From the NCBI RefSeq assembly GCF_000526395.1, contig NZ_JAFZ01000001.1, positions 558,001 through 622,000 on the forward strand: a DNA stretch of 64,000 nt. The letters are read 5' to 3'. The notes beneath the pieces were generated by a model. The model ran no database searches. It saw nothing but the letters and a program-made list of their open reading frames with translations, and was not told the origin of the DNA. The first letter of the stretch is position 1. Each line of letters starts with the position of its first letter. Made by a program: the position numbers and the translations under genes. Of this stretch, positions 6,928-46,798 are shown in pieces. Source of the DNA: Aminobacterium mobile DSM 12262 (GTDB lineage Bacteria > Synergistota > Synergistia > Synergistales > Aminobacteriaceae).

Positions 6928-7329
6928 TTACGCCCCCTCTTGGGTTTCGAGGCTGTCACACAGCTTCTTATAGGCCTCCCAGTCTAAAAGGTTATCAAGT
7001 TCGGACGGATCAGACATTTCCAAAACAGCAATCCAACTTGCATAGGGATCTTCATTCACAAGTTCAGGAGAGTCTTCCAGTTCAGAGTTGCTTTCAACAA
7101 TAGTTCCGCTTACTGGAGAGTAGACATCGTTCGCGCCCTTAACAGACTCGACTACGCAGAAGTCGCTTCCAGCAGATACCTCTGCTCCTTCTTCAGGAAG
7201 CTCTACATAAACAATGTCGCCCATAGCGTGCTGAGCATAATCTGTAATACCAATTCGAGCCTTACCGTCTTCTACTTTTACCCATTCGTGAGTCTCTGTG
7301 TACTTCAGTTCTTTAAGCACCTTTGCCAT
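6928..7329 (-). CDS. gcvH: Glycine cleavage H protein
   Basis: Lipoyl carrier shuttling the aminomethyl group between P-, T- and L-proteins. 133 aa, with the lipoylated lysine at Lys64 in VVESVKGANDVYSP and the family-typical EHTHEW-like TETHEWVKVE at the N-terminus, then GITDYAQHAMGDIVYVELPE. The two lipoate ligase genes in this window (at 8465 and 13797) are the likely source of its modification. Confidence 0.97.
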   Translation of the reverse strand: MAKVLKELKYTETHEWVKVEDGKARIGITDYAQHAMGDIVYVELPEEGAEVSAGSDFCVVESVKGANDVYSPVSGTIVESNSELEDSPELVNEDPYASWIAVLEMSDPSELDNLLDWEAYKKLCDSLETQEGA

Positions 7330-7352
7330 TATTCTAGACCTCCTTTTCTCTT

Positions 7353-8444
7353 TTACCGTTTGTAGTGTTTTTGATAAAAAGGTTTTTTTACCTTTTTTGC
7401 TTTTTTCTCTTTACCGTGAATAACGATAAGCATCTCTTCTTCATTAGCTGCATCGGCTTCCACTAGAGCAAGGGCGATACTTTTCTCAAGACTTGGGGAA
7501 TAACCACCAGTAGTAACCCTTCCAATGGTCTGCCCTTTCGCTCTGACTTCATAATGTTCCCGGGGAATTCCCTTGTCTACCATTTCAAGAGCTACTGTTT
7601 TACGAGGAACTCCCTTTTCTTTCATCGCAGCGAGACAATCTCTCCCTATGAAAGCGGTATCAAGTTTTACAAAGAATCCTAATCCTGCTTCAAGAGGAGT
7701 AATATGAGCCCCGAGCTCATGTCCGTAAAGAGGCAGTCCAGCTTCGAAGCGAAGACTATCTCTGCAACCAAGTCCTGCCGGAAGAATTCCGAACTCTTTT
7801 CCTGCTTCCATGATGGCATCCCACACCTTAGGGCCATCATTCCACGGTACGTAAATTTCGAAACCATCTTCTCCTGTGTAGCCTGTTCGGGAGACAAGGG
7901 CCTTGGCTCCCGCTACGTCCACATTTTCTACAAAGCGAAAGAAACCGAGATCCTTGGGATCGAACTTCGCAATTTTCGCAAGGATTGCTTCTGCTTTGGG
8001 GCCCTGAAGAGCAACCTCGCTATATTGCGGAGAAAGGTCTTCCACAGAAGCTCCCTCTCTTACATGGTCTTGTAGCCACATAACATCCTTTTCTGTGTTG
8101 GAAGCGTTGATAACGAGGAAATAATTCTCTTTGGAAACTTTGTAGATCAAAAGGTCGTCTACAACTCCTCCGTTGGGGTAGCACATGAAAGTATAGATGA
8201 CCTGTCCTTCTTCCATAGCGGTAACATCGTTGCTCATCATGTACTGAAGCCATTCCTCAGCCTTAGGACCCGTAACCCGTACCTCTCCCATGTGTGAAAC
8301 ATCGAAAATACCGGCTGCAGATCGCACTCTCCGATGCTCTTCGACTATTCCTGCCTCGTAATGGACAGGAAGTTCCCAGCCGCCAAAATCGACCATTTTC
8401 CCATTATGGGCTAGGTGCTTTTCATATAGCGCTGTTTGTCTCAC
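7353..8444 (-). CDS. gcvT: Glycine cleavage T protein (aminomethyltransferase)
   Basis: Transfers the methylene group from aminomethyl-lipoyl-GcvH to tetrahydrofolate, giving 5,10-methylene-THF and ammonia. 363 aa; conserved N-terminus (LYEKHLAHNGKMVDFGGWELP), FDVSHMGEVRVTG, the folate-site YTGEDGFEIYVP and the DSLRFEAGLPLYGHE region are all visible. First of the gcv genes proper; it lies 20 bp downstream of lplA. Its product feeds FolD and Fhs, whose genes lie at 47-49 kb and 57 kb. Confidence 0.97.
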   Translation of the reverse strand: MRQTALYEKHLAHNGKMVDFGGWELPVHYEAGIVEEHRRVRSAAGIFDVSHMGEVRVTGPKAEEWLQYMMSNDVTAMEEGQVIYTFMCYPNGGVVDDLLIYKVSKENYFLVINASNTEKDVMWLQDHVREGASVEDLSPQYSEVALQGPKAEAILAKIAKFDPKDLGFFRFVENVDVAGAKALVSRTGYTGEDGFEIYVPWNDGPKVWDAIMEAGKEFGILPAGLGCRDSLRFEAGLPLYGHELGAHITPLEAGLGFFVKLDTAFIGRDCLAAMKEKGVPRKTVALEMVDKGIPREHYEVRAKGQTIGRVTTGGYSPSLEKSIALALVEADAANEEEMLIVIHGKEKKAKKVKKPFYQKHYKR

Positions 8445-8464
8445 AACCTCACCTCCATGTCATG

Positions 8465-9472
8465 TTAAAACATCTTGGCCCACTCTGTTTCAAGCCAAGT
8501 TGCCAAATCGTCTACTTCTTGGGGAATAGAACCTTTATAGTCTCTTCGCAATGCCTGTGCTAAATCAGTTCCATTAAGAGGAATGCCCTGGAAACAGGGA
8601 GCCAAATTGGCAATAAGCTCTGCATCCATCGCATCGGAATAGACGACACTGCGACTCACGTTTCCTCCCTGAACGTGAAAACCTACTTGTACGTGCCCCC
8701 ACTCAAAACGATGTTCCAATTCCACATCAAAGTCGGGAGTACGACCATAAATCCATGATGCGCTTTGATATTTTTCATAAAGCTTCTGCATGGGGAGTGT
8801 ATGACTGAGTTCTTCCAGTGATAATTCGTCGCCTTTCCCGCCATATTCTGCAAGAAAAGCTGTTTGTAAGGCTTCTTTGAGTTTCGGAATTGTTAAAGAA
8901 GAATTTATCTCTTTTAAGTTAATGACGCGAGAACGCACTGAATCTATCCCTTTAGCCTGGAGTTTCGCGGTAGGTGGCTGAAGATAACGAGCCATTCTCT
9001 CTATGTCCACATCAACTAAGAGTGTTCCATGATGGTAGCGACCAGCTTTCCCCATATAGAAAGCATTTCCTGAAAACTTTCGTTCGTCCACGAAAATATC
9101 GTTTCTACCACCGAAATACGCAGGTATATTCAGTAACCGAAGCCCCGCGATAATAACCTTAATTTGTCGAATAAAGTCATAAGTAAGGGGAGATGCAAGA
9201 AAGGTAAAGTTCAGATTCCCAAGATCATGATAAACAGCACCCCCACCGGAGAGGCGCCGAGCTAATTTCCCATTTTCCGCTGATAGGAGAGTTGTTCTAC
9301 ATTCCTTCCACGCATTCTGATTCCGTCCTATTACCACAGTATGCTGGTTTTGCCAAAGATACAACATCACTCCACGGTCAGCTACTTGGGAGAGGAGATA
9401 TTCCTCAAGGGCTAGGTTCATCCATGGGTCGAAAAAAGGAGATTCGGCGAGAAAAGTTTTCACGTTCGACAC
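8465..9472 (-). CDS. lplA: Lipoate-protein ligase A (first copy)
   Basis: Uses ATP and free lipoate to lipoylate proteins, here most likely GcvH encoded downstream. GTG start at 9472 with AGGGGGTG 8-9 bp upstream. Seen: FDPWMNLALEEYLL near the N-terminus, the lipoyl-AMP-binding RRLSGGGAVYHDLGNLNFTF, and KFSGNAFYMG with the lysine corresponding to the catalytic one, then HHGTLL. 335 aa with the C-terminal accessory domain. First gene of the glycine cleavage operon, consistent with needing scavenged lipoate. A paralogue lies at 13797-14789. Confidence 0.93.
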   Translation of the reverse strand: MSNVKTFLAESPFFDPWMNLALEEYLLSQVADRGVMLYLWQNQHTVVIGRNQNAWKECRTTLLSAENGKLARRLSGGGAVYHDLGNLNFTFLASPLTYDFIRQIKVIIAGLRLLNIPAYFGGRNDIFVDERKFSGNAFYMGKAGRYHHGTLLVDVDIERMARYLQPPTAKLQAKGIDSVRSRVINLKEINSSLTIPKLKEALQTAFLAEYGGKGDELSLEELSHTLPMQKLYEKYQSASWIYGRTPDFDVELEHRFEWGHVQVGFHVQGGNVSRSVVYSDAMDAELIANLAPCFQGIPLNGTDLAQALRRDYKGSIPQEVDDLATWLETEWAKMF

Positions 9473-29136: not shown

Positions 29137-29463
29137 CTTGAAATATGGCAGTATAATGCTCTCGATAAGGAGGACGACGCCTGTGTGAATAAAGGAGCAA
29201 GACGGAATTTGGTATTTTTGTCGTTACATCTCTAACGTAGTAAAACTCCGGAAATTCAGCGTTTCTTGCAAAAAGATGAATTTGGAAACTGGCATCCTGC
29301 TAGATTAGGTTCCCTCTCTTCTCTGCATGTTTGCGCCCCAACAGGGCGAGTTCCCTGAGAGAATTTTTTAGAAAAACATACATTGCTTTTAAATTAACGG
29401 TATGATACCCTCCCCATAGGTGTACATATGGGGATTTTTATATTGGAGAGGGGGTATATTAAT
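29137..29463 (+). promoter_or_regulatory. Leader region before tupABC with two terminator-like hairpins
   Basis: 327 bp without a recognised gene. Hairpin 1: TTCTCT (29319-29324) with AGAGAA (29358-29363), an inner CGCCC/GGGCG, then T6. Hairpin 2: TCCCCATA (29411-29418) with TATGGGGA (29427-29434), then T5, ending just before the tupA ribosome site. Hairpin 1 may end the MATE transcript; hairpin 2 may be an attenuator or operator. A 16-codon frame starting at GTG 29183 behind AAGGAGGA could be a leader peptide. I could not match the known molybdenum/tungsten-cofactor riboswitch. Confidence 0.4.
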
Positions 29464-30309
29464 ATGTGTATATACTATAAGAAGTATCGCAAAGGCATTC
29501 TCGCCTTACTCCTTGCGATGTTTTTCATATGGGTAGGGTCACCTCTCTTTGCTGCTGACAATGTACTGCGAATGGCTACAACTACGAGCACTGATAATAC
29601 AGGGTTGCTTGATTATCTTGCGCCGCTTTTTAAAGAAGACACGGGGATTGAGTTACAGTGGGTGGCTGTTGGCACTGGAAAGGCTTTAGAATTAGGGAAA
29701 AATTGCGATGTGGACGTATTACTTGTGCATGCTCCTGACACGGAAAAAAAATATGTACAGGATGGTTATGGAGTCAATCGTCGCCAGGTAATGTATAACG
29801 ATTTTATTATTATCGGTCCTAAGGACGATCCGGCAAAGATAAAAGGGATGTCAGTGTTGGATGCGTTGAAACAGATTGCGGCTTCTGGTTCTCCTTTCGT
29901 CAGTCGCGGAGATAAATCTGGGACTCATATCTTGGAAATGGATTTGTGGGAAGAGGTCGGTATGGCTCCTGATAAAGAGTCGTGGTACATTCAGACTGGT
30001 CAAGGGATGATGAATACTATCAATATTGCAGCAGAACGTTCTGGTTACACTATGACAGATCGGGGCACATATATTAAGTACGAAGATGTGAATAAGGGAA
30101 AATCTCTTTTTGATATAGCGGTAGAAGGGGATGTGGCTTTAAGAAACCAATACAGCGTCATAGCCGTGAACCCGACTCGTTGTGATAATGTAAAGTACGA
30201 TCTGGCGTTGCAGTTTATTGACTGGATGGTCTCTCCTGTAGTTCAAGAAAAGGTAGGACAATACACCCTCCTGGGGAAGACATTATTCTTCCCCAACGCT
30301 CAGCAATAG
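29464..30309 (+). CDS. tupA: Tungstate ABC transporter substrate-binding protein
   Basis: 281 aa from ATG 29464 (GGAGAGGGGG upstream). A basic N-terminus (YYKKYRKG) and hydrophobic signal segment end at SPLFAAD. Mature part LRMATTTSTDNTGLLDYLAP is the TupA signature, and GDKSGTH and DRGTYI also fit. Binds tungstate in the periplasm for import. Tungsten-dependent ferredoxin oxidoreductases or formate dehydrogenases are likely users in an amino-acid fermenter, but none is in the window. Confidence 0.93.
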   Translation: MCIYYKKYRKGILALLLAMFFIWVGSPLFAADNVLRMATTTSTDNTGLLDYLAPLFKEDTGIELQWVAVGTGKALELGKNCDVDVLLVHAPDTEKKYVQDGYGVNRRQVMYNDFIIIGPKDDPAKIKGMSVLDALKQIAASGSPFVSRGDKSGTHILEMDLWEEVGMAPDKESWYIQTGQGMMNTINIAAERSGYTMTDRGTYIKYEDVNKGKSLFDIAVEGDVALRNQYSVIAVNPTRCDNVKYDLALQFIDWMVSPVVQEKVGQYTLLGKTLFFPNAQQ

Positions 30310-30349
30310 CGCTAATACTCAATAGTGGAATAGATTGAGATTGTGAAAA

Positions 30350-30387
30350 AATAAGCGCTGTCTTCAATAAGGAAGACAGCGCTTATT
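30350..30387 (+). terminator. Stem-loop between tupA and tupB
   Basis: Perfect 16-bp stem AATAAGCGCTGTCTTC / GAAGACAGCGCTTATT (30350-30365 with 30372-30387), 6-nt loop. It lacks a T run after it, so it is more likely an RNA-stabilising or processing hairpin that raises tupA mRNA over tupBC than a true terminator. Confidence 0.6.
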
Positions 30388-30410
30388 AAAAGTTGAAGAG
30401 GAGATATATC

Positions 30411-31106
30411 GTGGGATACATCTCACAAGGTTTCACAACAGCGATAGACTTGCTTTTTTCAGGTGACCCTGAAACCTGGTCCGCTATTATTACGACCCTT
30501 AAAATTTCATCTATATCTGTTTTAGCCACTATACTTATAGGCATTCCCTTAGGTTTTATGCTTGGTACCGTTTCTTTTCCTGGGCGCTCTATTATCCGCA
30601 CAGGTGTAGATACCCTTTTGGCCCTTCCCACAGTAGTTGTGGGCCTGATTGTGTACTCTTTTATTTCCAGGCGAGGACCTTTGGGCAGTGCTGGTCTTCT
30701 TTTTACTCTAGAGGGAGTAGTAGTGGGACAGGTTTTCCTGGGCCTTCCAATTGTTATTGCCCTTACTGCGTCCGCCGTGGAAGGGCTTGAAGTACAGCTT
30801 CGTCATACTCTTCTCACTTTGGGCGCTACAAGAAAACAGCTGATTTTAAGTACTCTTTGGGAGGCACGATATGCCGTTATAGTGGCTGGAATTGCGGCCT
30901 ATAGTCGAATTATTTCTGAGGTAGGCGTTTCTATGATGTTGGGTGGTAACATCAAATGGCATACTCGAACTATTACTACGGCTATCGCTCTGGAAACAGG
31001 AAAAGGGGAATTTGCCATGGGGATAGCTCTTGGTCTCGTCTTACTACTTCTTGTATTAATAGTCAATTTACTCCTTTCTGAGTTTAAACGGAGAAGCGCC
31101 ATATGA
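30411..31106 (+). CDS. tupB: Tungstate ABC transporter permease
   Basis: 231 aa starting at GTG 30411 with GAGGAGA upstream. Five or so membrane segments; the EAA loop HTLLTLGATRKQLILSTLWE is visible. N-terminus GYISQGFTTAIDLLFSGDPE is typical of TupB. Its stop overlaps the tupC start by 4 bp. Confidence 0.92.
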   Translation: MGYISQGFTTAIDLLFSGDPETWSAIITTLKISSISVLATILIGIPLGFMLGTVSFPGRSIIRTGVDTLLALPTVVVGLIVYSFISRRGPLGSAGLLFTLEGVVVGQVFLGLPIVIALTASAVEGLEVQLRHTLLTLGATRKQLILSTLWEARYAVIVAGIAAYSRIISEVGVSMMLGGNIKWHTRTITTAIALETGKGEFAMGIALGLVLLLLVLIVNLLLSEFKRRSAI

Positions 31107-31771
31107 AGACGTTATATTCCCTCCAAAAAATAAGACATTATTATAAAAATCATTGCGTTCTGGATATTCAAGGGCTAGAAATATATTCTCGCGAAATTGT
31201 GGGAATTTTGGGGCCTAACGGCAGTGGAAAAAGCACGTTGCTTCGCATTTTAGCTTTTTTGGAAACCCCGGTAGAAGGACACATTTCTTTTAAAGGACAG
31301 TTAGTTTCGGATTTGACAGTTGAGTTAAGACGGTCAGTAACTCTTTTATTACAAGATGCGTATTTGTTAAAAAGAAGCGTGCGTGAGAATGTTGGCTTTG
31401 GTTTGAAAGTGCGGGGTATAATAAAAAAAGAGCGAGAACAAAGAATAGCTGAGGCCCTTTCGGTTGTAGGCTTAGACCCTGTGATTTTTGCTTCTCGCAA
31501 GTGGTTTGAGCTTTCTGGAGGAGAGGCGCAGAGAGTGGCTTTGGCCAGTCGTTTGGTTTTAAAGCCAGAAGTTCTTTTACTCGATGAACCTACGGCCAGT
31601 GTGGATAAAGAGAGCGCTGATCTTATACAACATGCAATAAAAATGTGTCGAGAGAGGTGGGGAACAACCTTATTACTCGTAAGTCACAATGCAGAGTGGG
31701 TAAAGAATGTATCTGATAGGCTGATCTTCCTTTCTGAGGGGTGTATTGAAAAAGATATAAAAAAATCCTAA
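31103..31771 (+). CDS. tupC: Tungstate ABC transporter ATP-binding protein
   Basis: 222-aa ATPase. Walker A GPNGSGKSTLL, signature LSGGEAQRVALAS, Walker B LLLDEPTASVD and H-loop LVSHNAEW are present. Lacks the long C-terminal regulatory domain of ModC, as expected for TupC. Overlaps tupB by 4 bp. The 404 bp after it contain no gene I can support. Confidence 0.92.
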   Translation: MKTLYSLQKIRHYYKNHCVLDIQGLEIYSREIVGILGPNGSGKSTLLRILAFLETPVEGHISFKGQLVSDLTVELRRSVTLLLQDAYLLKRSVRENVGFGLKVRGIIKKEREQRIAEALSVVGLDPVIFASRKWFELSGGEAQRVALASRLVLKPEVLLLDEPTASVDKESADLIQHAIKMCRERWGTTLLLVSHNAEWVKNVSDRLIFLSEGCIEKDIKKS

Positions 31772-32175: not shown

Positions 32176-32646
32176 ATGGCACAGGTGGAATTGGAAAGGA
32201 TCCAGAAAACGCGGGATATGGTGGCTCCGTGGAAGAATCAGAAGGGTGGTCTCATCCCGATTCTTCAGGAAGCTCAGAAGGAGTTCGGGTACCTGCCTCC
32301 CGAAGTGATGGAAACAATTTCCAGGGAATTAAAAATCCCCAAGGCAGAAATATATGGGGTGGCGACTTTTTATGCACAGTTCCATTTGAAGCCCCGAGGA
32401 CGACATGTTATTCGAGTTTGCCGTGGTACAGCCTGCCACGTTCGAGGAAGCCTCAAGATTTTGGAAAAAGTAAAAGAGCTTACTGGCGTGAGCGAAAATG
32501 AGACCACTGACGATCTCAGGTTTACCATTGAGCCGGTTGCCTGCCTTGGAGCATGTGGACTTGCCCCTGTCATGGTGGTAGACAACCAAACTTTTGGGCG
32601 TCTAGCCCCCGATATGGTGGCCGGAATGCTTGCTAAGTTTGAATAA
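32176..32646 (+). CDS. hydC: NAD-linked [NiFe] hydrogenase, NuoE-like [2Fe-2S] subunit (HydC)
   Basis: 156 aa, thioredoxin-like [2Fe-2S] protein of the NuoE/HoxE/HndA family. The four Cys ligands are in CRGTAC and CLGACG, in the usual C-x4-C...C-x3-C pattern. AAGGAGGGG lies before the ATG. First gene of a run with NuoF-like, NuoG-like and [NiFe] small and large subunits, so it passes electrons within the flavin module. Assignment to the HydABCSL type rests on gene order and the domain make-up of the partners. Confidence 0.92.
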   Translation: MAQVELERIQKTRDMVAPWKNQKGGLIPILQEAQKEFGYLPPEVMETISRELKIPKAEIYGVATFYAQFHLKPRGRHVIRVCRGTACHVRGSLKILEKVKELTGVSENETTDDLRFTIEPVACLGACGLAPVMVVDNQTFGRLAPDMVAGMLAKFE

Positions 32647-32663
32647 CGACGAGGAGGACGGCT

Positions 32664-33032
32664 ATGGCAAAGATCAGCAATCTTGACGAACTTAAAAAGA
32701 TACGGGAATCTTCAAAGGATCTGACTTCGGCACGAGCCGAAGGAAAAATTGTCATTATTGTTGGCATGGGAACTTGTGGGATAGCGGCTGGAGCTAGAGA
32801 AGTAATGACGGCTATTATGGATGAAGTGGAAAAGAGGAAACTTACGGAAGTACACGTTCAGACCACTGGTTGTATTGGGATGTGCCAAAATGAGCCCCTT
32901 GTTGATGTAATACGGGACGGGCAACGTATTACTTACGGTAACGTAACACCGAGCGATGTGCCTACTATTATTGCTGAACACGTTGTTAATGGCCATATAG
33001 TAGAAAAAATGGCTATTGGCAGAGCAGATTAA
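32664..33032 (+). CDS. HndB-like thioredoxin-fold [2Fe-2S] ferredoxin
   Basis: 122 aa. Related to HndB of NADP-reducing hydrogenases and to the N-terminal [2Fe-2S] domain of NuoF-like bifurcation subunits. Cys ligands are in IIVGMGTCGIAAGA and TTGCIGMCQNEP: one Cys in the first segment and two in the second; the first segment lacks the usual second Cys (MGTCGIAAGA has Ala/Gly there), so the cluster may be absent or altered. It starts 17 bp after hydC behind GAGGAGG. Probably an extra electron-transfer or assembly subunit. Confidence 0.85.
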   Translation: MAKISNLDELKKIRESSKDLTSARAEGKIVIIVGMGTCGIAAGAREVMTAIMDEVEKRKLTEVHVQTTGCIGMCQNEPLVDVIRDGQRITYGNVTPSDVPTIIAEHVVNGHIVEKMAIGRAD

Positions 33033-33047
33033 GGGGGGAAAAAGGGG

Positions 33048-34841
33048 ATGCCAATCTATCGTTCCCATGTCCTTATCTGTGGAGGAACCGGATGTACCTC
33101 CAACGGATCTCACGAAGTGATGGACACATTTCGCGATGAGCTGCGGAAGCAGAAACTCGATAGAGAAGTTCTTATTGTCCCGACGGGCTGTCATGGAATG
33201 TGTGAGATGGGGCCAATTGTGGTGGTTTATCCTGAAGGGACCTTTTATTGTCAAGTTAAAGCGAGCGATGTTTCAGAGATTGTAGAAGAACATTTGTTGA
33301 AAGGTCGCATTGTCTCTCGTCTTCTTTATACCGTCTCTGAAGAAGCTCCTAGAGTCCCTCATTATAAAGAAATTCCTTTTTACGGCAAACAGCATCGTAT
33401 CGCTCTGGAAAACTGTGGCTATATCAACCCAGATAATATAGAAGAGTACATTGTTCGCCACGGGTATGAAGCCCTCGGCAAAGCTCTGATAGAAATGACT
33501 CGCGAACAGGTTATCGATGAAATTAAAACCTCTGGGTTGCGAGGGCGTGGAGGCGGTGGCTTCCCTACAGGGTTGAAGTGGAGTTTTTGCGCCAAAGCTC
33601 CTGGAGATAAAAAATACGTAATTTGTAACGCAGATGAAGGAGACCCAGGTGCTTTCATGGACCGTTCTATATTGGAAGGGGATCCTCATTGTGTTCTTGA
33701 AGGCATGATGATAGGGGCTTACGCTATAGGTGCAAATGAAGGATATATTTATTGTCGAGCGGAGTATCCTTTAGCAATACTTCGTTTAAAAACCGCCATC
33801 GCCAAAGCAGAGGAGTATGGGTTGCTTGGCGATCACATTATGGGAACCGATTTTTCCTTCCGTGTTCATATTAAGGAGGGGGCCGGAGCTTTTGTGTGTG
33901 GAGAAGAAACAGCTCTGATGGCCTCTATCGAGGGACAGCGAGGCATGCCTCGTCCCCGCCCGCCTTTCCCCGCAAATAAAGGTCTATGGGGGAAACCTAC
34001 TAACATCAATAACGTTGAGACGTGGGCCAATGTTGCTTATATTATTCGTCACGGTGGTGCTCATTATGCGGCCATGGGAACTGCTAAATCTAAGGGGACC
34101 AAGGTTTTTGCCCTTACAGGAAAGGTGAAACATACTGGTCTTGTAGAAGTTCCTATGGGTATAACCTTGAGAGAAATTATTTTCGATATAGGCGGCGGTA
34201 TTCTGAACGATAAAAAGTTTAAAGCTGTCCAGATTGGAGGCCCCAGTGGAGGGTGCCTTACGGAAGAACATCTCGACATTCCCGTAAGCTATGAATCTCT
34301 TGCAGAAGTCGGAGCCATTATGGGATCTGGCGGCATGGTCGTTATGGACGAAGATAACTGTATGGTTGACGTTGCTAAGTTCTTCCTTGAATTTACACAG
34401 CGTGAATCATGCGGGAAGTGCACTCCTTGCCGAGAAGGAACAAAACAAATGTTGTTGCTTCTTAACAAAATTACTGAAGGTAAGGGCACGCTTGAAGATC
34501 TCGAAAAATTGGAGAACCTTGCCCTTATGGTTAAGGAAATGTCTCTGTGCGGATTAGGGCAGACTGCTCCTAACCCTATACTTACAACTCTTCGTTACTT
34601 TAAAGATGAGTATATTGCTCACGTACGAGATAAAAAGTGTCCGGCAGGTGTCTGCCCTGCACTTATTGAATTCTCTATCGACCAGGACCTTTGTAAGCGC
34701 TGTGGCCTTTGTGCTCGAAACTGCCCGGTACACTGTATCCCTGGGGATAGAGCGTTGGGGTACACTATCGACACAGAGAGATGTATCCGTTGCGGCACCT
34801 GTTATGATAAGTGCCCCTTCGGAGCCATTCATAAAGGCTAG
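33048..34841 (+). CDS. hydB: NAD-linked [NiFe] hydrogenase, NuoF-like flavin subunit with C-terminal ferredoxin domain (HydB)
   Basis: 597 aa with four parts. An N-terminal thioredoxin-like [2Fe-2S] domain has Cys in ICGGTGCTSNG and TGCHGMCEMGP. The FMN/NADH-binding core has RGRGGGGFPTGLKW and the NADEGDPGAFMDR motif, followed by SLBB. The NuoF [4Fe-4S] region is ESCGKCTPCREG. A C-terminal 2x[4Fe-4S] ferredoxin has CKRCGLCARNCPV and CIRCGTCYDKCPF. This architecture is the one seen in electron-bifurcating HydB subunits, not in the shorter HoxF/NuoF. It would couple NAD(H), ferredoxin and H2. Confidence 0.93.
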   Translation: MPIYRSHVLICGGTGCTSNGSHEVMDTFRDELRKQKLDREVLIVPTGCHGMCEMGPIVVVYPEGTFYCQVKASDVSEIVEEHLLKGRIVSRLLYTVSEEAPRVPHYKEIPFYGKQHRIALENCGYINPDNIEEYIVRHGYEALGKALIEMTREQVIDEIKTSGLRGRGGGGFPTGLKWSFCAKAPGDKKYVICNADEGDPGAFMDRSILEGDPHCVLEGMMIGAYAIGANEGYIYCRAEYPLAILRLKTAIAKAEEYGLLGDHIMGTDFSFRVHIKEGAGAFVCGEETALMASIEGQRGMPRPRPPFPANKGLWGKPTNINNVETWANVAYIIRHGGAHYAAMGTAKSKGTKVFALTGKVKHTGLVEVPMGITLREIIFDIGGGILNDKKFKAVQIGGPSGGCLTEEHLDIPVSYESLAEVGAIMGSGGMVVMDEDNCMVDVAKFFLEFTQRESCGKCTPCREGTKQMLLLLNKITEGKGTLEDLEKLENLALMVKEMSLCGLGQTAPNPILTTLRYFKDEYIAHVRDKKCPAGVCPALIEFSIDQDLCKRCGLCARNCPVHCIPGDRALGYTIDTERCIRCGTCYDKCPFGAIHKG

Positions 34842-34862
34842 AGTGGCAGGGAGGATGCGAAT

Positions 34863-36884
34863 ATGAGCGAAATTACTCTAAATATTGACGGGAAAACCTG
34901 TAAAGGCGTTCATGGAGATACAATTCTAGATATTGCTCGTAAGAATGATGTCTATATTCCAACCCTTTGCTTTTTAGAAGGAATTTCAGCAATAGGCTCT
35001 TGCAGAATGTGTGTAGTGGAAGTAGAGGGGAACAATAAGCTTTTAACCGCCTGCACGACCCCTGCTTCTGATGGTATGGTTGTTCACACTAAAACGGAGA
35101 AATTAACAGAATATAGAAGACAGATTCTTGAACTCCTTTTTGCAGGGAGAAACCATTTTTGCATGTTTTGTTCTCAGAGTGGAGATTGCGAACTGCAGCG
35201 TCTTGCAATCGAACATGGAATGGATAAGGTTCGTTATCCTTATCTGTATGCAGATTTTCATAATGATGCTACAGATGAAGATTTGCAGATGGACCATAAT
35301 CGATGCATCCTTTGTTTGCGGTGCATTCGTGTGTGCGATGAGAAAGTCGGAGCTCATACTTTAGATCTTGAAAAACGAGGCTGGAATGCCAGCGTTGTTT
35401 CAGATCTCGGTAAAGTTCTTGGTGAAAGTGATACGTGTATTTCCTGTGGGGCCTGTGCTCAGGTATGCCCTACTGGTACCATTACCATTCGTGACTTCGT
35501 CTACCGTGGGCGTCGTAATGATTGCGACGACATTGTGGAAAGTATTTGCCCTCTCTGTCCGTTAGGTTGCAAAATAAAAGCATATGTGCGGACAGGAAGT
35601 GTAGCTCGAGTAGAGGGGGCGGCTGTTAATAGTCCTGATGGAGGACAATTGTGCCATAAAGGTCGCTGGTGGCTTCCCGAATCTACGGAACGGACGCGCC
35701 TTTCCGTTCCCATGGTGCGGTCAGGTTCATCTTTCCACGAAGCTTCTTGGGATGAGGCTTTGGAAGTTGTGGCAGACAAGTTAACTTCAGCCAGAGTTGA
35801 AGGGAAGGCCGGGGCGTTAGTTTCGGGGCTTTCCACAGATGAGGAATTAACAGTGATATCTGATTTCTTCCGTGGTGCTTTGAAGCTCGAGAAAATAGAT
35901 TGTTTTAATGGGGATGTACTTCGAGGGTTTAATGAGGGATTCCGTCCCTTTATGAGCCAAGGAATTCGCCCTTTTACGGCCGCTCATAATATCCTTAATA
36001 GCGATGCTATTATAGTCATAGGTGGTAATCCCCAGGAAGAAGCTCCCGTGGTGGCGAGTTATATTCGTGTTGCAACTGTTAAAAATGGAGCCAAACTTAT
36101 TAATTTCTCGGCGAAAGACAATCCATTTGAGTCCATTAGCGATGTGGATATTCGTATTTCTGCAGAAGTTTTGCATGGGGCTCTTGTCTCTCTCACCGAG
36201 GCTGTAGCAGGACGAGAGGATGCTGAGAACCGGATTTCCTCTGTAGCGGACTTAGCCGGAATAGAGCCAGAAGAGGTGGCGAAGGCTGTAAAGTATCTTT
36301 CTGAAGCCCAGCACCCAATTGTCATTCTGGGTTCGAGGTTGGCAAAATATCCTCAAATTGTCATCGAAGCTGTCAACATGGCTATTACAGCTCAGGGTAT
36401 TTTTGAAGATGGATTAGGTCTTGTCCCCATGGTACTCAGTGGCAATAGCCTTGGTGCCTGGAATACGGTACTCGGGGAAAAGCCCTGGCTGGAAAGTGTT
36501 GACATGGATTTCCTTTATGTGAATTCCACAGGCATGGTTCCGGAAGATCCCAAATCCCTTGAAGCTGTGAATAAAGCCCGGTTTGTAGTTGTACAAACGC
36601 CGTACATGGTGAGTCCTCTTGTGAATATGGCAGACGTTCTTCTCCCAATGCCGGCATGGTACGAACGAAGTGGGCACTTCTGTACTTTGGAAGGGGAGCG
36701 ACGTCGAGTTAATATGATTGTTCCTCCTAAGGAAGGGCTCCGTGGGCTTTCAAAGGTTTTTCAGGATCTCGCGTCAAAAATGGGCATTTCACTTGTCTCT
36801 TCTTCTGCTTCGCCCTGTGAAAACATTTTTAAGTCGAGATTTTCTCCTGATAAGGCCCAAGTGGTCTCCTCTGAGGAGGTGTAG
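34863..36884 (+). CDS. hydA: NAD-linked [NiFe] hydrogenase, NuoG-like iron-sulfur subunit (HydA-type)
   Basis: 673 aa. The N-terminal [2Fe-2S] domain has CFLEGISAIGSCRMCVVEVE and a later Cys. The NuoG His-Cys cluster region follows (HFCMFCSQSGDCELQ), then 2x[4Fe-4S] (CILCLRCIRVC, CISCGACAQVCP) and a molybdopterin-oxidoreductase-like region with its own [4Fe-4S] motif (CPLCPLGC ... LCHKGRWW). The C-terminal half looks like NuoG, with no [FeFe] H-cluster motifs. HoxU of simple bidirectional hydrogenases has only the first third, so the long form places this enzyme in the HydABCSL group known from Acetomicrobium mobile. Confidence 0.9.
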   Translation: MSEITLNIDGKTCKGVHGDTILDIARKNDVYIPTLCFLEGISAIGSCRMCVVEVEGNNKLLTACTTPASDGMVVHTKTEKLTEYRRQILELLFAGRNHFCMFCSQSGDCELQRLAIEHGMDKVRYPYLYADFHNDATDEDLQMDHNRCILCLRCIRVCDEKVGAHTLDLEKRGWNASVVSDLGKVLGESDTCISCGACAQVCPTGTITIRDFVYRGRRNDCDDIVESICPLCPLGCKIKAYVRTGSVARVEGAAVNSPDGGQLCHKGRWWLPESTERTRLSVPMVRSGSSFHEASWDEALEVVADKLTSARVEGKAGALVSGLSTDEELTVISDFFRGALKLEKIDCFNGDVLRGFNEGFRPFMSQGIRPFTAAHNILNSDAIIVIGGNPQEEAPVVASYIRVATVKNGAKLINFSAKDNPFESISDVDIRISAEVLHGALVSLTEAVAGREDAENRISSVADLAGIEPEEVAKAVKYLSEAQHPIVILGSRLAKYPQIVIEAVNMAITAQGIFEDGLGLVPMVLSGNSLGAWNTVLGEKPWLESVDMDFLYVNSTGMVPEDPKSLEAVNKARFVVVQTPYMVSPLVNMADVLLPMPAWYERSGHFCTLEGERRRVNMIVPPKEGLRGLSKVFQDLASKMGISLVSSSASPCENIFKSRFSPDKAQVVSSEEV

Positions 36885-36887
36885 AGA

Positions 36888-37427
36888 ATGTCGAAACCAA
36901 AAGTCGCTACTGTATGGCTTGAAGCCTGTGCCGGATGCCATATGTCCTTTCTCGATATCGATGAGCGGATTATCGACCTCCTGGATAAGGTGGATCTTAC
37001 AGCTACACCGATAACGGATATTAAGGAGTTTCCTGAGGTGGAAGTAGGAGTTATAGAAGGGGCCTTGGGTAACGAGGAAGAGCTTCACCTTGCTAAGGAG
37101 TTACGTAAGAAGTGTAAAATACTCATTGCTTGGGGCGATTGTGCTGTCTTCGGTGGCATTAACTGTATGAGAAATTTCATGAAACCTGAAGATGTCCTCA
37201 AGGAAGGGTACGTGAATACTGTCTCTACGGTGAACCCCACGGCTGTGATTCCAGGAGAAAATATCCCCCATCTTTTGCCCCATGCCATTCCGGTAGACTA
37301 TGAAGTAAAGGTGGATGTTTATGTTCCTGGATGCCCTCCGGATGCGGATACTATCTATTACGTTTTCCAGGAGATCCTTCAGGGTCGAATTCCTAAGGTC
37401 CCTGTGGATATGATGAGGTATGACTAG
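36888..37427 (+). CDS. hydS: [NiFe] hydrogenase small subunit (HoxY/HydS type)
   Basis: 179 aa. Holds the proximal [4Fe-4S] cluster: Cys14 and Cys17 in LEACAGCHMSF, a third in AWGDCAVFGG and a fourth in VPGCPPDAD. Short, with no Tat signal and no extra clusters, so it is a cytoplasmic group 3 type subunit. ATG lies 3 bp after the previous stop. Confidence 0.94.
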   Translation: MSKPKVATVWLEACAGCHMSFLDIDERIIDLLDKVDLTATPITDIKEFPEVEVGVIEGALGNEEELHLAKELRKKCKILIAWGDCAVFGGINCMRNFMKPEDVLKEGYVNTVSTVNPTAVIPGENIPHLLPHAIPVDYEVKVDVYVPGCPPDADTIYYVFQEILQGRIPKVPVDMMRYD

Positions 37428-37448: not shown

Positions 37449-38882
37449 ATGAGTGCAGAGAAAGCAAAAACAATCGTTGTCAATCCTGTCTCCCGTATCG
37501 AGGGACATGGAAAAATTACGGTAATGTTGAATGGTAAGGGCGAGGTAGAGGGGGCTCGTTTTCACGTCACTCAGTTCAGAGGGTTTGAAGCCTTTACCAA
37601 GGGGCGAGATTTCAGGGAAATGCCGGTTATTACCCCTAGAATTTGCGGCATTTGTCCTGTCAGCCATCATCTTGCTTCGGCCAAGGCGTGTGACGCAGTC
37701 CTTGGAGTTACCATTACTCCTACGGCTCATAAATTGCGAGAGTTAATGCATATGGGACAGTTTGTTCAGTCTCATGCTCTCTCTTTTTTCCACTTATCAA
37801 GTCCGGACTTGCTTTTCGGGTTTGATGCTGATCCGGCAAAGAGAAATGTGGCAGGGCTAGTGCAGGAATTTCCAGACCTTGCCGTTATGGGTGTGACAAT
37901 ACGAAAGTTCGGACAGGAAGTAATTAGAACGCTCGGAGGTAAAAAAATTCATCCATGGCACAGCATTCCAGGTGGTGTGAACAGGAGCCTGAAGGTAGAG
38001 GAACGAGATGAACTATTGGGAAGGCTTCCTAAAATAAAAGAAGACCTTCGAAAAGCCTTGGACTTAATCAAAAACTATCTCGCAGAACATGGAAGAGAAG
38101 CCAAAGAGTTTGCAACTCTTGAAACATCTTATCTCGGTCTTGTTCGTGAAGGGGACTTAGAGCTTTACGATGGACGTATTCGTCTTCGAAGTCCACGAGG
38201 TAGAATTACCGATGAATTCGACAGCAAAGAATATGTTTCTTTTATCGGAGAGCATGTGGAACCGTGGAGCTATTTAAAATTCCCCTTCTATAGACCGTTG
38301 GGTTTCCCTCATGGTAGTTATCGAGTTGGGCCATTAGGGCGTCTCAACGCTTGTGATGGAATTTCTACTCCAGAAGCTTCAGCAGAGTTGATAGCCTTTA
38401 GAAAACTGACAAATGATGGTGTGGTGCACTATACTATGTACTATCACTATGCGCGACTTATTGAAGCTTTATATGCTGCGGAGCGTATGGAAGAACTGCT
38501 TCATGATCCAGATATCACCGGAAGCGAACTCAGAATTACATCAAGCGAACTTCAGCCGGAGGGCATAGGAGTCATAGAAGCTCCCCGCGGAACATTGATC
38601 CACCATTACCAGGTGGACGAAAAGGGTGCTATAACAAAAGTAAACCTTATTGTTGCTACCGGTCATAATAATTATGCCATGAATAAAGGCGTTGAAATGG
38701 TGGCTCGGCAGTATGTTCATGGCGGTACTGTCAAAGAGGGAGCCCTGAACCGGATGGAACATGTGATTCGGTGTTATGACCCTTGCCTCTCCTGCTCTAC
38801 CCACGCTGTAGGACGAATGCCGCTGAAGATGACAATAGTGGATGAGAATGGGCGAGAGATTCGAACTGTAGAAAAGAATTAA
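37449..38882 (+). CDS. hydL: [NiFe] hydrogenase large subunit (HoxH/HydL type)
   Basis: 477 aa; carries the Ni-Fe(CN)2CO site. The four Cys ligands are visible: Cys66 and Cys69 in RICGICPVSHH, and Cys446 and Cys449 in DPCLSCSTHA. About 25 residues follow the expected cleavage point after His452, so it is a precursor that needs the protease encoded next. The GxIEGH-type N-terminal motif (PVSRIEGHGKI) is also present. Closest in appearance to group 3d HoxH. Confidence 0.95.
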   Translation: MSAEKAKTIVVNPVSRIEGHGKITVMLNGKGEVEGARFHVTQFRGFEAFTKGRDFREMPVITPRICGICPVSHHLASAKACDAVLGVTITPTAHKLRELMHMGQFVQSHALSFFHLSSPDLLFGFDADPAKRNVAGLVQEFPDLAVMGVTIRKFGQEVIRTLGGKKIHPWHSIPGGVNRSLKVEERDELLGRLPKIKEDLRKALDLIKNYLAEHGREAKEFATLETSYLGLVREGDLELYDGRIRLRSPRGRITDEFDSKEYVSFIGEHVEPWSYLKFPFYRPLGFPHGSYRVGPLGRLNACDGISTPEASAELIAFRKLTNDGVVHYTMYYHYARLIEALYAAERMEELLHDPDITGSELRITSSELQPEGIGVIEAPRGTLIHHYQVDEKGAITKVNLIVATGHNNYAMNKGVEMVARQYVHGGTVKEGALNRMEHVIRCYDPCLSCSTHAVGRMPLKMTIVDENGREIRTVEKN

Positions 38883-38896
38883 TTTGTTGTATTATG

Positions 38897-38930
38897 GCAA
38901 GGTCGGTGTTGTTTTCCCGGCCTTGCTTTT
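38897..38930 (+). terminator. Stem-loop/terminator between large subunit and protease
   Basis: GCAAGGTCGG (38897-38906) pairs with CCGGCCTTGC (38917-38926; one T-G wobble), followed by TTTTCT. It probably lowers expression of the protease and small gene relative to the structural subunits. Confidence 0.65.
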
Positions 38931-38944
38931 CTAAAGGAGCTTGT

Positions 38945-39415
38945 ATGAAAGTCTTTATAGCTGGATTTGGAAATCCTTATCGTGAAGATGATAGTGTCGG
39001 TTTATATGTGGCTCCATTAGTGGCAAGTTGGTTGGAAGAGCAGGGAGTTTCTGTGAGTATATGGAGTGGTCAACAGCTTCTTCCAGAGCTAGTTTACGAT
39101 TTGGAAGACATGGATGTTGTCGTTTTTGTTGACGCCGATGCAAGACAATTCCCAGAAGGATATGCGCTAGAAGAGTTAGATGCGAATCCTCTCCTTGAAG
39201 GGTTAAATATCCATTCTATGGGTCCAGCATGGCTCTTGTCTCTTATGGAGAGGCTGGGAATGGTGAAGCCGAAAACATTGCTTCTTTCTATCTCTGGTTT
39301 TTCTTTTAATTTCAGTGAAATAATAACCTCCCAATGTATGGATGGAGCGAAGAAGGCGGAGGAAGCCTTTCGGAAGTGGTGGAAAGAATTTATATCTTTA
39401 CAAGAAGGAGAATAA
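38945..39415 (+). CDS. [NiFe] hydrogenase maturation endopeptidase (HoxW/HycI type)
   Basis: 156 aa from ATG 38945 (AAAGGAGC upstream); a longer frame starting at 38894 runs through the terminator stem and is rejected. M52 family signature GFGNPYREDDSVG at the N-terminus contains the first Ni-binding acidic residue, then VFVDADARQ and NIHSMGP with the His ligand. It removes the C-terminal extension of the large subunit after nickel insertion. Position right after hydL fits a dedicated protease. Confidence 0.9.
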   Translation: MKVFIAGFGNPYREDDSVGLYVAPLVASWLEEQGVSVSIWSGQQLLPELVYDLEDMDVVVFVDADARQFPEGYALEELDANPLLEGLNIHSMGPAWLLSLMERLGMVKPKTLLLSISGFSFNFSEIITSQCMDGAKKAEEAFRKWWKEFISLQEGE

Positions 39416-39418
39416 ACC

Positions 39419-39706
39419 ATGTGCAAAGTTATTACGCCAGAAGCAACTGAAGGTCATGTCCATGTACACGGGGCTCTGGAAGAAGCGGAACTTTTAAGAG
39501 AAACTATTTCTGAAGAGCTGGATTCTATAACGAGTTTAGTGGCCAGATGGCACGCAGTAGAGAGTGTCGAAGGCAAAAATACCTTCTTTCAGGCTATTAA
39601 AGCCAAAAGGACAGTGCTTAAAAGGCTATGGGAAGCTCTAACGGAGATGGAAGGAAGTTTTCTCTTAGAGGGATGTGAGGAGGCTCATTGCCATCATCAC
39701 CACTAG
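39419..39706 (+). CDS. Small hydrogenase-operon protein with His/Cys-rich ends (unknown)
   Basis: 95 aa, starts 3 bp after the protease stop behind AAGGAGAA, so clearly part of the operon. I do not recognise a family. The N-terminus has MCKVITPEATEGHVHVHG; the middle is a charged helix with coiled-coil character; the C-terminus ends GCEEAHCHHHH. The histidine and cysteine clusters at both ends suggest metal binding, most simply nickel delivery or storage for this hydrogenase. No hypA-hypF genes are in the window. Function is inference from composition and place. Confidence 0.75.
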   Translation: MCKVITPEATEGHVHVHGALEEAELLRETISEELDSITSLVARWHAVESVEGKNTFFQAIKAKRTVLKRLWEALTEMEGSFLLEGCEEAHCHHHH

Positions 39707-39746: not shown

Positions 39747-39781
39747 ACGGGAGGTAGAATTTTTTGCCTCCCGTATTTTTT
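39747..39781 (+). terminator. Terminator of the hydrogenase operon
   Basis: ACGGGAGG (39747-39754) with CCTCCCGT (39767-39774), followed by ATTTTTT. Lies 40 bp after the last gene. Confidence 0.85.
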
Positions 39782-44859: not shown

Positions 44860-44953
44860 GCAGGAACTGTCGGACGAGGCGAATAATATGCCCGACTGTT
44901 TCTTTTCGATTCTAACTTTTAGGGGCGACTCCTGCAAAGGGCGCTCCTTTTTT
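44860..44953 (+). promoter_or_regulatory. Attenuator-like leader before archease-rtcB
   Basis: GCAGGA (44860-44865) pairs with TCCTGC (44930-44935), enclosing a GTCGG/CCGAC hairpin (44869-44896). TCCTGC also lies in the loop of a terminator stem GGGGCG (44922-44927) / CGCTCC (44942-44947) followed by T7. The two folds compete, as in a riboswitch or attenuator. The frame through this region is open and in phase with archease, but the conserved archease N-terminus begins at 44975. Confidence 0.5.
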
Positions 44954-44974
44954 ATTGTAGAGGGATGTGATCAA

Positions 44975-45388
44975 ATGCCTTGGAAAGAAATAGAACACAC
45001 AGCAGATGTAGGTTTTGAAGTGAAAGCCGCTTCTCTTGACGAACTTTTTTTAGAAGCAGCTCTTGCTTTGTATGCATTAGGTTATGGAGAGACGGAGGAA
45101 CTGAGGGAAAACTATGAGAAAAGGAAGGAAATTTTACAAATAGAGGGTATAGATCTTGAAGAGTTAGTGGTTTCGTGGCTCAATGAGCTTATTTTCATAG
45201 TGGAAACACGTCATGTTCTCTTTGTGCCCACATCTGTTCATGTTATAGCAGAGCCCCTTCATATCACAGTAGAAGGAGTTTTGTCTGAGAGACACGGAGT
45301 ACGTCTTCCTGTGAAATCTGCTACATATGGAGGGTTGGTTATCCGAAGATACCCCGATCCCTTTCTTCGGATTTTTTTGGATGTATAG
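44975..45388 (+). CDS. Archease
   Basis: 137 aa from ATG 44975 (GAGGGA upstream). Activates the RNA ligase RtcB by speeding up guanylylation and multiple turnover. N-terminal MPWKEIEHTADVGFEV is the family signature, with the metal-binding Asp in HTADVG; the C-terminal Asp (FLDV) is also typical. It sits 15 bp before rtcB, the usual partner. An N-terminal extension from ATG 44888 is possible in frame but would run through a terminator stem. Confidence 0.92.
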   Translation: MPWKEIEHTADVGFEVKAASLDELFLEAALALYALGYGETEELRENYEKRKEILQIEGIDLEELVVSWLNELIFIVETRHVLFVPTSVHVIAEPLHITVEGVLSERHGVRLPVKSATYGGLVIRRYPDPFLRIFLDV

Positions 45389-45403
45389 CGAGAGGTGAAG
45401 AAT

Positions 45404-46798
45404 ATGAAAGGATCCTTGACGAGAATGGATGACGTCCGTCTCCTTCTCGGACGCGAGGCGCAAGATGGGATGAGGGTGCCAGGGCTTATTTACGCTGATA
45501 AATATATAGAATCCATGCTTGAAGAGGAAAATGCTCTTCTACAAGTTGCCAATGTTGCATGTCTTCCAGGTATTATCGGATATAGTTTCGCTATGCCTGA
45601 TATCCATTGGGGATATGGTTTCCCAATTGGCGGGGTTGCTGCTTTCGACGTGGATGAAGGAATTATTTCTCCCGGTGGTGTCGGCTACGATATTTCCTGT
45701 GGAGTTCGTCTTCTCAGCTCTAGTCTCGTTGTGACAGATGTTACGAACGTAATGGATCAATTGTTGCCTGCTCTTTTCTCCGCAGTACCTTGTGGAGTGG
45801 GGTCTAGCAGCAGGCAGAAGCTGTCAGATAGAGATTTGGAAAAGGTCCTTACAGACGGTGCCCGTTGGGCTGTGAAGGCTGGATATGGGATTGAGAGCGA
45901 TCTGGACCACACAGAGGAGAATGGCTGTTTAGAAGGAGCTCTTCCTTCAGTAGTATCGAATCGAGCCAAAGAACGAGGTCGAACTCAGTTGGGGACTTTA
46001 GGATCTGGGAACCATTTTTTAGAAATTCAAGTAGTAGACGAAGTTTTTGACGAGAGAGAGGCTTCAAAATTAGGTTTAAAAACAGGGTGTATTACGGTGA
46101 TGATTCACTGCGGAAGTAGAGGATTGGGGCATCAGGTATGTGATGACTATCTTAAGGTTATGAGGCGTGCCATGGAGCGTTACCATATAATTGTCCCTGA
46201 CCGCCAACTCTGTTGCGCTCCTATAAAGTCGGAGGAGGGGGAAAAATATTTGGGAGCTATGAAAGCGGCGGCTAATTTTGCTTTGGTAAATCGCCATATG
46301 ATAGCAGATGCGGTGCGTCATGTTTTTACAGCATTTTTCCCCAAAGTACCTCTTCACACTGTTTATGATGTAAGTCATAACATAGCCCACATTGAAACTC
46401 ATGAATGGGAAGGGCATCGAAAAGAACTTTGCGTTCATCGTAAGGGGGCTACAAGAGCTTTTCAAGGACAACCGGTTCTTATTCCGGGAAGTATGGGGAC
46501 AGCAAGCTACGTCCTTGTGGGAACTCGACAAGCAGAGATAGAGACTTTTGCATCTACATGCCATGGTGCTGGAAGGGTCTTGAGTAGAAATGAAGCAGTG
46601 AAAAGAGCACGAGGGCAAGATCTTTTCAAAGTCTTATCAGAACGGGGAATATCCGTAATGGCTGAAAGTCCTCGAACCCTAGGGGAAGAGATGCCGGAAG
46701 CATATAAAGATGTGTCGAATGTTGTAGATGTTGTTCAAGAAGCTGGCATCAGTTTAAAGGTGGCAAAACTTCGCCCCCTAGCTGTGATAAAAGGATAG
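45404..46798 (+). CDS. rtcB: RNA-splicing ligase RtcB
   Basis: 464 aa from ATG 45404 (GAGAGGTGAAG upstream). Joins 2',3'-cyclic phosphate or 3'-phosphate RNA ends to 5'-OH ends with GTP and Mn2+. Seen: PDIHWGYGFPIGGVAAFD, the Mn-binding GGVGYDISCGVR, LGSGNHFLE, IHCGSRGLGHQ, and the guanylylated His387 in STCHGAGRVLSR. Full length. In bacteria it acts in RNA repair or tRNA repair after damage. The attenuator upstream of archease suggests regulated expression. Note that the enzyme uses Mn2+ and that the neighbouring transcript is controlled by a Mn2+ riboswitch. Confidence 0.96.
   Translation: MKGSLTRMDDVRLLLGREAQDGMRVPGLIYADKYIESMLEEENALLQVANVACLPGIIGYSFAMPDIHWGYGFPIGGVAAFDVDEGIISPGGVGYDISCGVRLLSSSLVVTDVTNVMDQLLPALFSAVPCGVGSSSRQKLSDRDLEKVLTDGARWAVKAGYGIESDLDHTEENGCLEGALPSVVSNRAKERGRTQLGTLGSGNHFLEIQVVDEVFDEREASKLGLKTGCITVMIHCGSRGLGHQVCDDYLKVMRRAMERYHIIVPDRQLCCAPIKSEEGEKYLGAMKAAANFALVNRHMIADAVRHVFTAFFPKVPLHTVYDVSHNIAHIETHEWEGHRKELCVHRKGATRAFQGQPVLIPGSMGTASYVLVGTRQAEIETFASTCHGAGRVLSRNEAVKRARGQDLFKVLSERGISVMAESPRTLGEEMPEAYKDVSNVVDVVQEAGISLKVAKLRPLAVIKG

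Follow-up and report, generated by a model that had tools for sequence, protein, structure and literature searches.

CooJ, a small nickel accessory protein for the CO dehydrogenase of Rhodospirillum rubrum, binds four nickel through the His-rich domain of its C-terminal region, and CooT is a nickel-binding dimer that begins with Met-Cys and binds nickel through Cys2 (excerpt of PMC6006190). In the maturation of [NiFe] hydrogenases, some HypB proteins carry a His-rich nickel-storage domain, which is supposed to feed the process, and HypC also begins with Met-Cys, its N-terminal Cys2 being essential (excerpt of PMC12134894). In EncFtn, an encapsulated ferritin, the ferroxidase ligands are Glu32, Glu62, His65 (of the ExxH motif) and Tyr39 (excerpt of PMC5012862). 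The authors who described the hydrogenase operon of Acetomicrobium mobile name three extra genes in it, HydD, HydP and HisK, and the excerpt of their paper mentions no His-tailed gene among the extra genes (PMC8880783).

The gene analysed here lies in the window, by which we mean the whole stretch of 64,000 nucleotides from Aminobacterium mobile; all features given below are on the plus strand. It occupies 39419..39706 (stop included), encodes a His/Cys-ended protein of 95 aa with a predicted EncFtn-like hairpin and is the last gene of a hydrogenase operon, which a strong intrinsic terminator closes (39747..39774, 12 pairs and a T-run). Upstream of it lie, in order, NuoE-like, [2Fe-2S], NuoF-like and NuoG-like subunits of the HydC, accessory, HydB and HydA type (32176..36884, from the ORF list with Pfam and NCBIfam), the [NiFe] hydrogenase small subunit (36888..37427, with Pfam and NCBIfam matches), the large subunit of NiFe-HydABCSL type (37449..38882, 801 bits to 7t2r) and a HydP-like maturation protease (38894..39415, TIGR00072 at E 3.3e-15), the true start of which may lie downstream of the listed ORF start. 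This gene order, together with the match of the large subunit to 7t2r, which we take to be the Acetomicrobium mobile NiFe-HydABCSL enzyme (its database label is only 'NiFe hydrogenase large subunit'), fits an electron-bifurcating NiFe-HydABCSL hydrogenase. An earlier, sequence-only reading had the ORF begin 3 bp after the protease gene, and we confirmed this: the protease TAA is at 39413-39415 and the ATG at 39419, and a ribosome-binding site read as GAAGGAG (39404..39410) lies within the end of the protease gene.

The same reading had pointed to two clusters of potential metal ligands, and both are present in the translation: GHVHVHG near the start (residues 12-18, with HVHVH, residues 13-17, encoded at 39455..39469) and GCEEAHCHHHH at the end (residues 85-95, 39671..39703). 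Its description of the ends did not include Cys2 (39422..39424). The clustering of His and Cys at the ends exceeds chance: 200,000 shuffles of the protein's own composition never gave both clusters, and of the window's 135 ORFs that start with ATG and encode 70 aa or more, one has a His-rich terminus and one has HxHxH near its start.

The protein is present in a single copy in its genome, and a profile search (E<=0.01) detected homologues in 29 of the 185 genomes of the phylum, all 29 of which were inspected individually. A profile scan of GTDB contigs gave 14 loci, including Acetomicrobium hydrogeniformans, Thermovirga and other Synergistetes; a single-protein query of the same contigs found nothing, and no relatives were found in plasmid records. 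We recognised no description of this His/Cys-ended family in the open PubMed Central literature. Twenty-six homologues are tailed, that is, they begin with Met-Cys followed by one to five His before helix 1; Cys2 is kept in 26/26 of these and is the most conserved candidate metal ligand, and a His is present in the N-terminal tail of every one. After helix 2, at least two His are found in 18/26 and one His in 2/26, the C-terminal His being absent in all six genomes of genus g27 and nearly absent in two of g20. The sequence-only reading had held that its proposal would fall if the His/Cys tails were not conserved among homologues; the tails are conserved in homologues of 35-67% identity, so the proposal stands on this point as regards Cys2, the N-terminal His cluster and, in most cases, the C-terminal His, but not the C-terminal Cys pair, which is not conserved even in the genus's two other species. 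Three homologues (in G034, G174 and G175) have neither a Met-Cys start nor N-terminal His and have a Cys-containing end stretch; judged from their sequences, the Met-Cys/His start is lost in these copies. They are positional orthologues, upstream of ylxM-ffh (loci L046-L048).

To score co-occurrence among the 185 genomes, hydrogenase was defined as a PF00374 match (81/185), HypB as a match over its cut-off (71/185) and HypA as a match at E<=1e-4 (124/185). All three are present in 26/26 genomes with a tailed copy and absent from the three genomes with untailed homologues. Encapsulin, taken as a control trait, was detected in 85/185 genomes overall, in 20/26 tailed and in 3/3 untailed genomes; CODH was found in 21/185 overall and in 0/26 tailed genomes, and urease in 0/185. 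Fisher's p over genomes, which are related and not independent, is 3e-11 for hydrogenase and 5e-13 for HypB; over genera it is about 6e-4 and 3e-4, respectively. Since relatives are not independent, contrasts inside families were also examined. PF00374 is matched in only one of the 52 genomes of family f4, which is also the sole genome there with a tailed copy; G172, of the same family, has a HypB match, no hydrogenase match and no copy, and the sequence read as its HypB looks transporter-like. Among the four genomes of genus g23, one has HypA and HypB and only that genome has the protein, two others having weak PF00374 matches and no HypA or HypB. Combined, these contrasts give p 0.03. The protein is missing from 55 of the 81 hydrogenase genomes and is thus not essential to maturation. 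G126 and G183 each show a single PF00374 match, in ORFs of 427 and 423 aa as against the 484-aa frame in the window, and these shorter ORFs point to a tie with NiFe hydrogenase generally, not specifically with HydABCSL. No His-rich HypB was found in any of the 26 tailed genomes; nor, among the HypB N-termini read in either group (those of G010, G053 and G109 excluded), was there compensation in the sense of a His-rich HypB where the protein is absent.

The tailed protein is restricted to NiFe-hydrogenase genomes of the group, so it probably handles nickel for hydrogenase. We consider it moderately probable that it is a nickel-binding accessory protein or store for [NiFe]-hydrogenase maturation, built on a disarmed EncFtn hairpin; its nickel binding is inferred. 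The earlier suggestion of a dedicated nickel chaperone or store is in part supported by the conserved ends and by the co-occurrence with hydrogenase in 26/26 genomes; the argument from the place of the gene in the hydrogenase operon, which made up half of that reading's case, is weak. In 3/29 cases, those of genus g1 (the window and two other species), the gene directly follows the hydrogenase protease, and in each of the three it ends the hydrogenase operon. This position is a local event of the genus and, being genus-specific, cannot alone carry a functional argument. Hydrogenase loci were compared in six other genomes: L173, L174 and L176, which are clearly readable HydABCSL loci, have no His-tailed small gene after the protease, L177 and L178 show other arrangements, and L175 gave an ambiguous reading in a crude ORF list.

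It is unlikely, though worth weighing, that the protein instead buffers divalent metals in general (zinc, cobalt, copper or iron) and has no role in maturation, its co-occurrence with hydrogenase having been inherited with lineage and life-style. His-rich tails are not metal-specific and also bind Zn, Cu and Co, 26/29 copies are found outside hydrogenase loci, near LUD or ylxM-ffh, within-family contrasts are few, and a Cys-rich end persists in the three homologues that lack the N-terminal cluster, whose genomes have no hydrogenase. A general buffer would not, however, be expected to accompany hydrogenase, HypA and HypB in 26/26 genomes when the equally common encapsulin reaches 20/26, and both the coincidence of N-terminal cluster loss with the absence of hydrogenase in g30 and the move of the gene into the hydrogenase operon in g1 also speak against it.

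EncFtn forms a decameric ring of dimers; the structure model here was built from 14 sequences and predicts the monomer only. The helical centre noted in the sequence-only reading is borne out by two confident helices, helix 1 at residues 19-46 (39473..39556) and helix 2 at residues 50-87 (39566..39679), with a block of pLDDT 92-98 over residues 21-80 and both ends disordered. The predicted fold is a two-helix antiparallel hairpin, as seen in EncFtn and EncB. Aligned with EncFtn, Glu33 in helix 1 takes the position of Glu32, and in helix 2 Lys63 and Val66 take those of Glu62 and His65. In a PDB profile search, the most plausible match was PFC_05175, the Pyrococcus encapsulated ferritin, aligned without gaps along some 59 residues (E 0.052 and 0.026), and the same search also returned EncB (7s5k) and the Pyrococcus virus-like particle (2e0z); gp41, SOX-9 and syntaxin-type matches were rejected, being judged due to His tags or coiled coils. 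EncB_fam (NF058679) was matched by 12 of 18 family members at E<=0.1 (best 6.3e-6), the bit scores listed being 13-21 against a curated cut-off of 90. The first eight Foldseek matches were to EncC, PFC_05175 and NE0167 (E 0.1-0.34). VIA-align 2 placed unrelated hairpins above EncB (Z 9.4, rank 43), and since these superpose equally well, the fold alone proves nothing. An hhalign comparison with a profile of nine EncFtn from the phylum was weak (probability 3.4%, E 0.013, 31 columns), so support for the relation comes from the Pyrococcus/EncB type and from the order of the Foldseek matches. From the profile matches and the fold search, a distant relation of the hairpin to EncFtn/EncB is likely; in view of the high E values, the unrelated hairpins that fit and the 3.4% hhalign probability, we grade this kinship as likely and not as proven. 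The statement that the protein belongs to no known family remains correct at curated Pfam and NCBIfam cut-offs (for the 95-aa protein, Pfam gave no family at E<=1 or at E<=10 and NCBIfam none at E<=1) and gives way only to this distant relation.

In the 18 aligned members, Glu32 is kept throughout, and the other ferroxidase ligands are replaced throughout, Glu62 by Lys or Arg, His65 by non-His residues and Tyr39 by Leu, Val or Ile; on the evidence of the aligned residues, the ferroxidase centre of EncFtn cannot form in this family. The new finding is that a disarmed encapsulated-ferritin hairpin probably forms the scaffold. It shares with EncFtn, EncB, EncC (Myxococcus xanthus) and PFC_05175 (Pyrococcus furiosus) a two-helix hairpin of equal length, an ungapped alignment of 59 residues and the Glu of helix 1, but differs from EncFtn in that its candidate metal ligands sit at both ends, and no encapsulin targeting peptide was found, the C-terminus being His-rich or ending after helix 2.

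The hairpin also invites the reading that the protein is a short iron-handling cargo or partner of encapsulin, which would make it an EncB/EncC-like component of the ferritin compartment in its genome. Encapsulin is present in 23/29 homologue genomes, and the window's genome has one with its own EncFtn, a separate, normal protein with a targeting-type C-terminal peptide, encoded beside encapsulin and rubrerythrin. At locus L071 (G000:C3:60000-76000), at about 6977-9284, we observed a small heat-shock-like protein, EncFtn, encapsulin and a rubrerythrin-like protein, and this cluster is a standard ferritin compartment. A cargo role is nevertheless very improbable: the ferroxidase ligands are lost in 18/18 members, the gene is on contig C1 and thus not adjacent to encapsulin and EncFtn on C3, it lacks a targeting peptide like that of the local EncFtn, and 6/29 homologue genomes have no encapsulin match, two of them being 99% complete.

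A divergent gene, which we take from its sequence to encode a LUD-domain protein, adjoins the homologue in 20/29 loci, with ylxM-ffh nearby in most of these; four further loci lie upstream of ylxM-ffh without LUD, and two are at contig ends. Genus g1 carries its LUD gene at another place in the genome (in the window's genome at G000:C2:261637-262260). This neighbourhood would suit a protein that acts with the LUD-domain protein or the ylxM-ffh operon and has no part in metal-enzyme maturation, but such a role is likewise very improbable, since the LUD gene is apart in the three g1 genomes and also in G126, G034 and G175, and the ffh neighbourhood persists in the genomes whose copies have lost the N-terminal metal cluster. 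There was no Rfam match to a nickel riboswitch, and inspection by eye of 18 intergenic stretches on the LUD side showed no nickel-responsive operator.

If the protein is a nickel accessory protein or store for hydrogenase maturation, the hairpin would pair with a second copy in the fashion of EncFtn, with Glu33 facing Lys/Arg63 in a salt bridge, and we propose that this bridge would let the dimer assemble without iron. After removal of Met, the exposed N-terminal Cys2 and the His cluster could form a site for nickel comparable to that of Cys2 in CooT, and the C-terminal His tail may provide a weaker store, like CooJ or the His-rich domains of some HypBs. Nickel would then be passed to HypA-HypB, the HypB here being without a His-rich domain, and on to the hydrogenase large subunit; in the window's genus, the move of the gene into the HydABCSL operon would couple the supply of this protein with that of the enzyme. 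More tentatively, a protein of the ferritin superfamily may have given up iron chemistry and become a nickel chaperone. The invariant Lys/Arg in place of the di-iron ligand Glu62 would then bridge to Glu32 across the dimer interface without any metal, and metal binding would have shifted to the N-terminal Cys2-His site and the C-terminal His tail. Such a chaperone would unite the strategies of CooT and CooJ in one chain and make up for the His-rich domain missing from HypB in the phylum.

Each of the described nickel-handling proteins shares only part of this design. CooJ resembles the 95-aa protein in its small size, its His-rich C-terminal region and its link to a nickel enzyme, but that enzyme is a different one and the 95-aa protein has the extra N-terminal Cys2/His cluster; no CooJ family or chain appeared among the family, PDB and fold matches, in libraries that may lack a CooJ model. 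CooT has in common the Met-Cys start and Cys2 as the probable metal ligand, whereas it is a beta protein, the model of the 95-aa protein is all helical and no profile match was obtained. Despite the Met-Cys start shared with HypC, the Pfam and NCBIfam searches gave no HypC profile match for the 95-aa protein, and the HypC fold is unlike its helical model. The likeness to the His-rich domain of some HypBs lies in a supposed store feeding hydrogenase maturation, which here would be a protein of its own, the HypB of these organisms having no such domain.

The family is small, well-bounded and clearly tied to NiFe hydrogenase at the genome level, and would give a direct handle on nickel buffering and delivery to hydrogenases in anaerobes without a His-rich HypB, in a phylum whose electron-bifurcating NiFe-HydABCSL enzyme already has a solved structure. 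It would also exemplify an encapsulated-ferritin fold whose ferroxidase centre was lost and which gained another metal task.

Three minor observations concern other genes. The LUD-type protein (for example L065:9274-9936) has a conserved Cys-rich C-terminal motif. In the window, positions 29428-31771 contain consecutive genes for a substrate-binding protein, a permease and an ATPase, which by eye have the look of a tungstate/molybdate-type ABC transporter, and positions 44888-46798 contain, also by eye, an archease-like gene and, after it, one for an RtcB-like RNA ligase.
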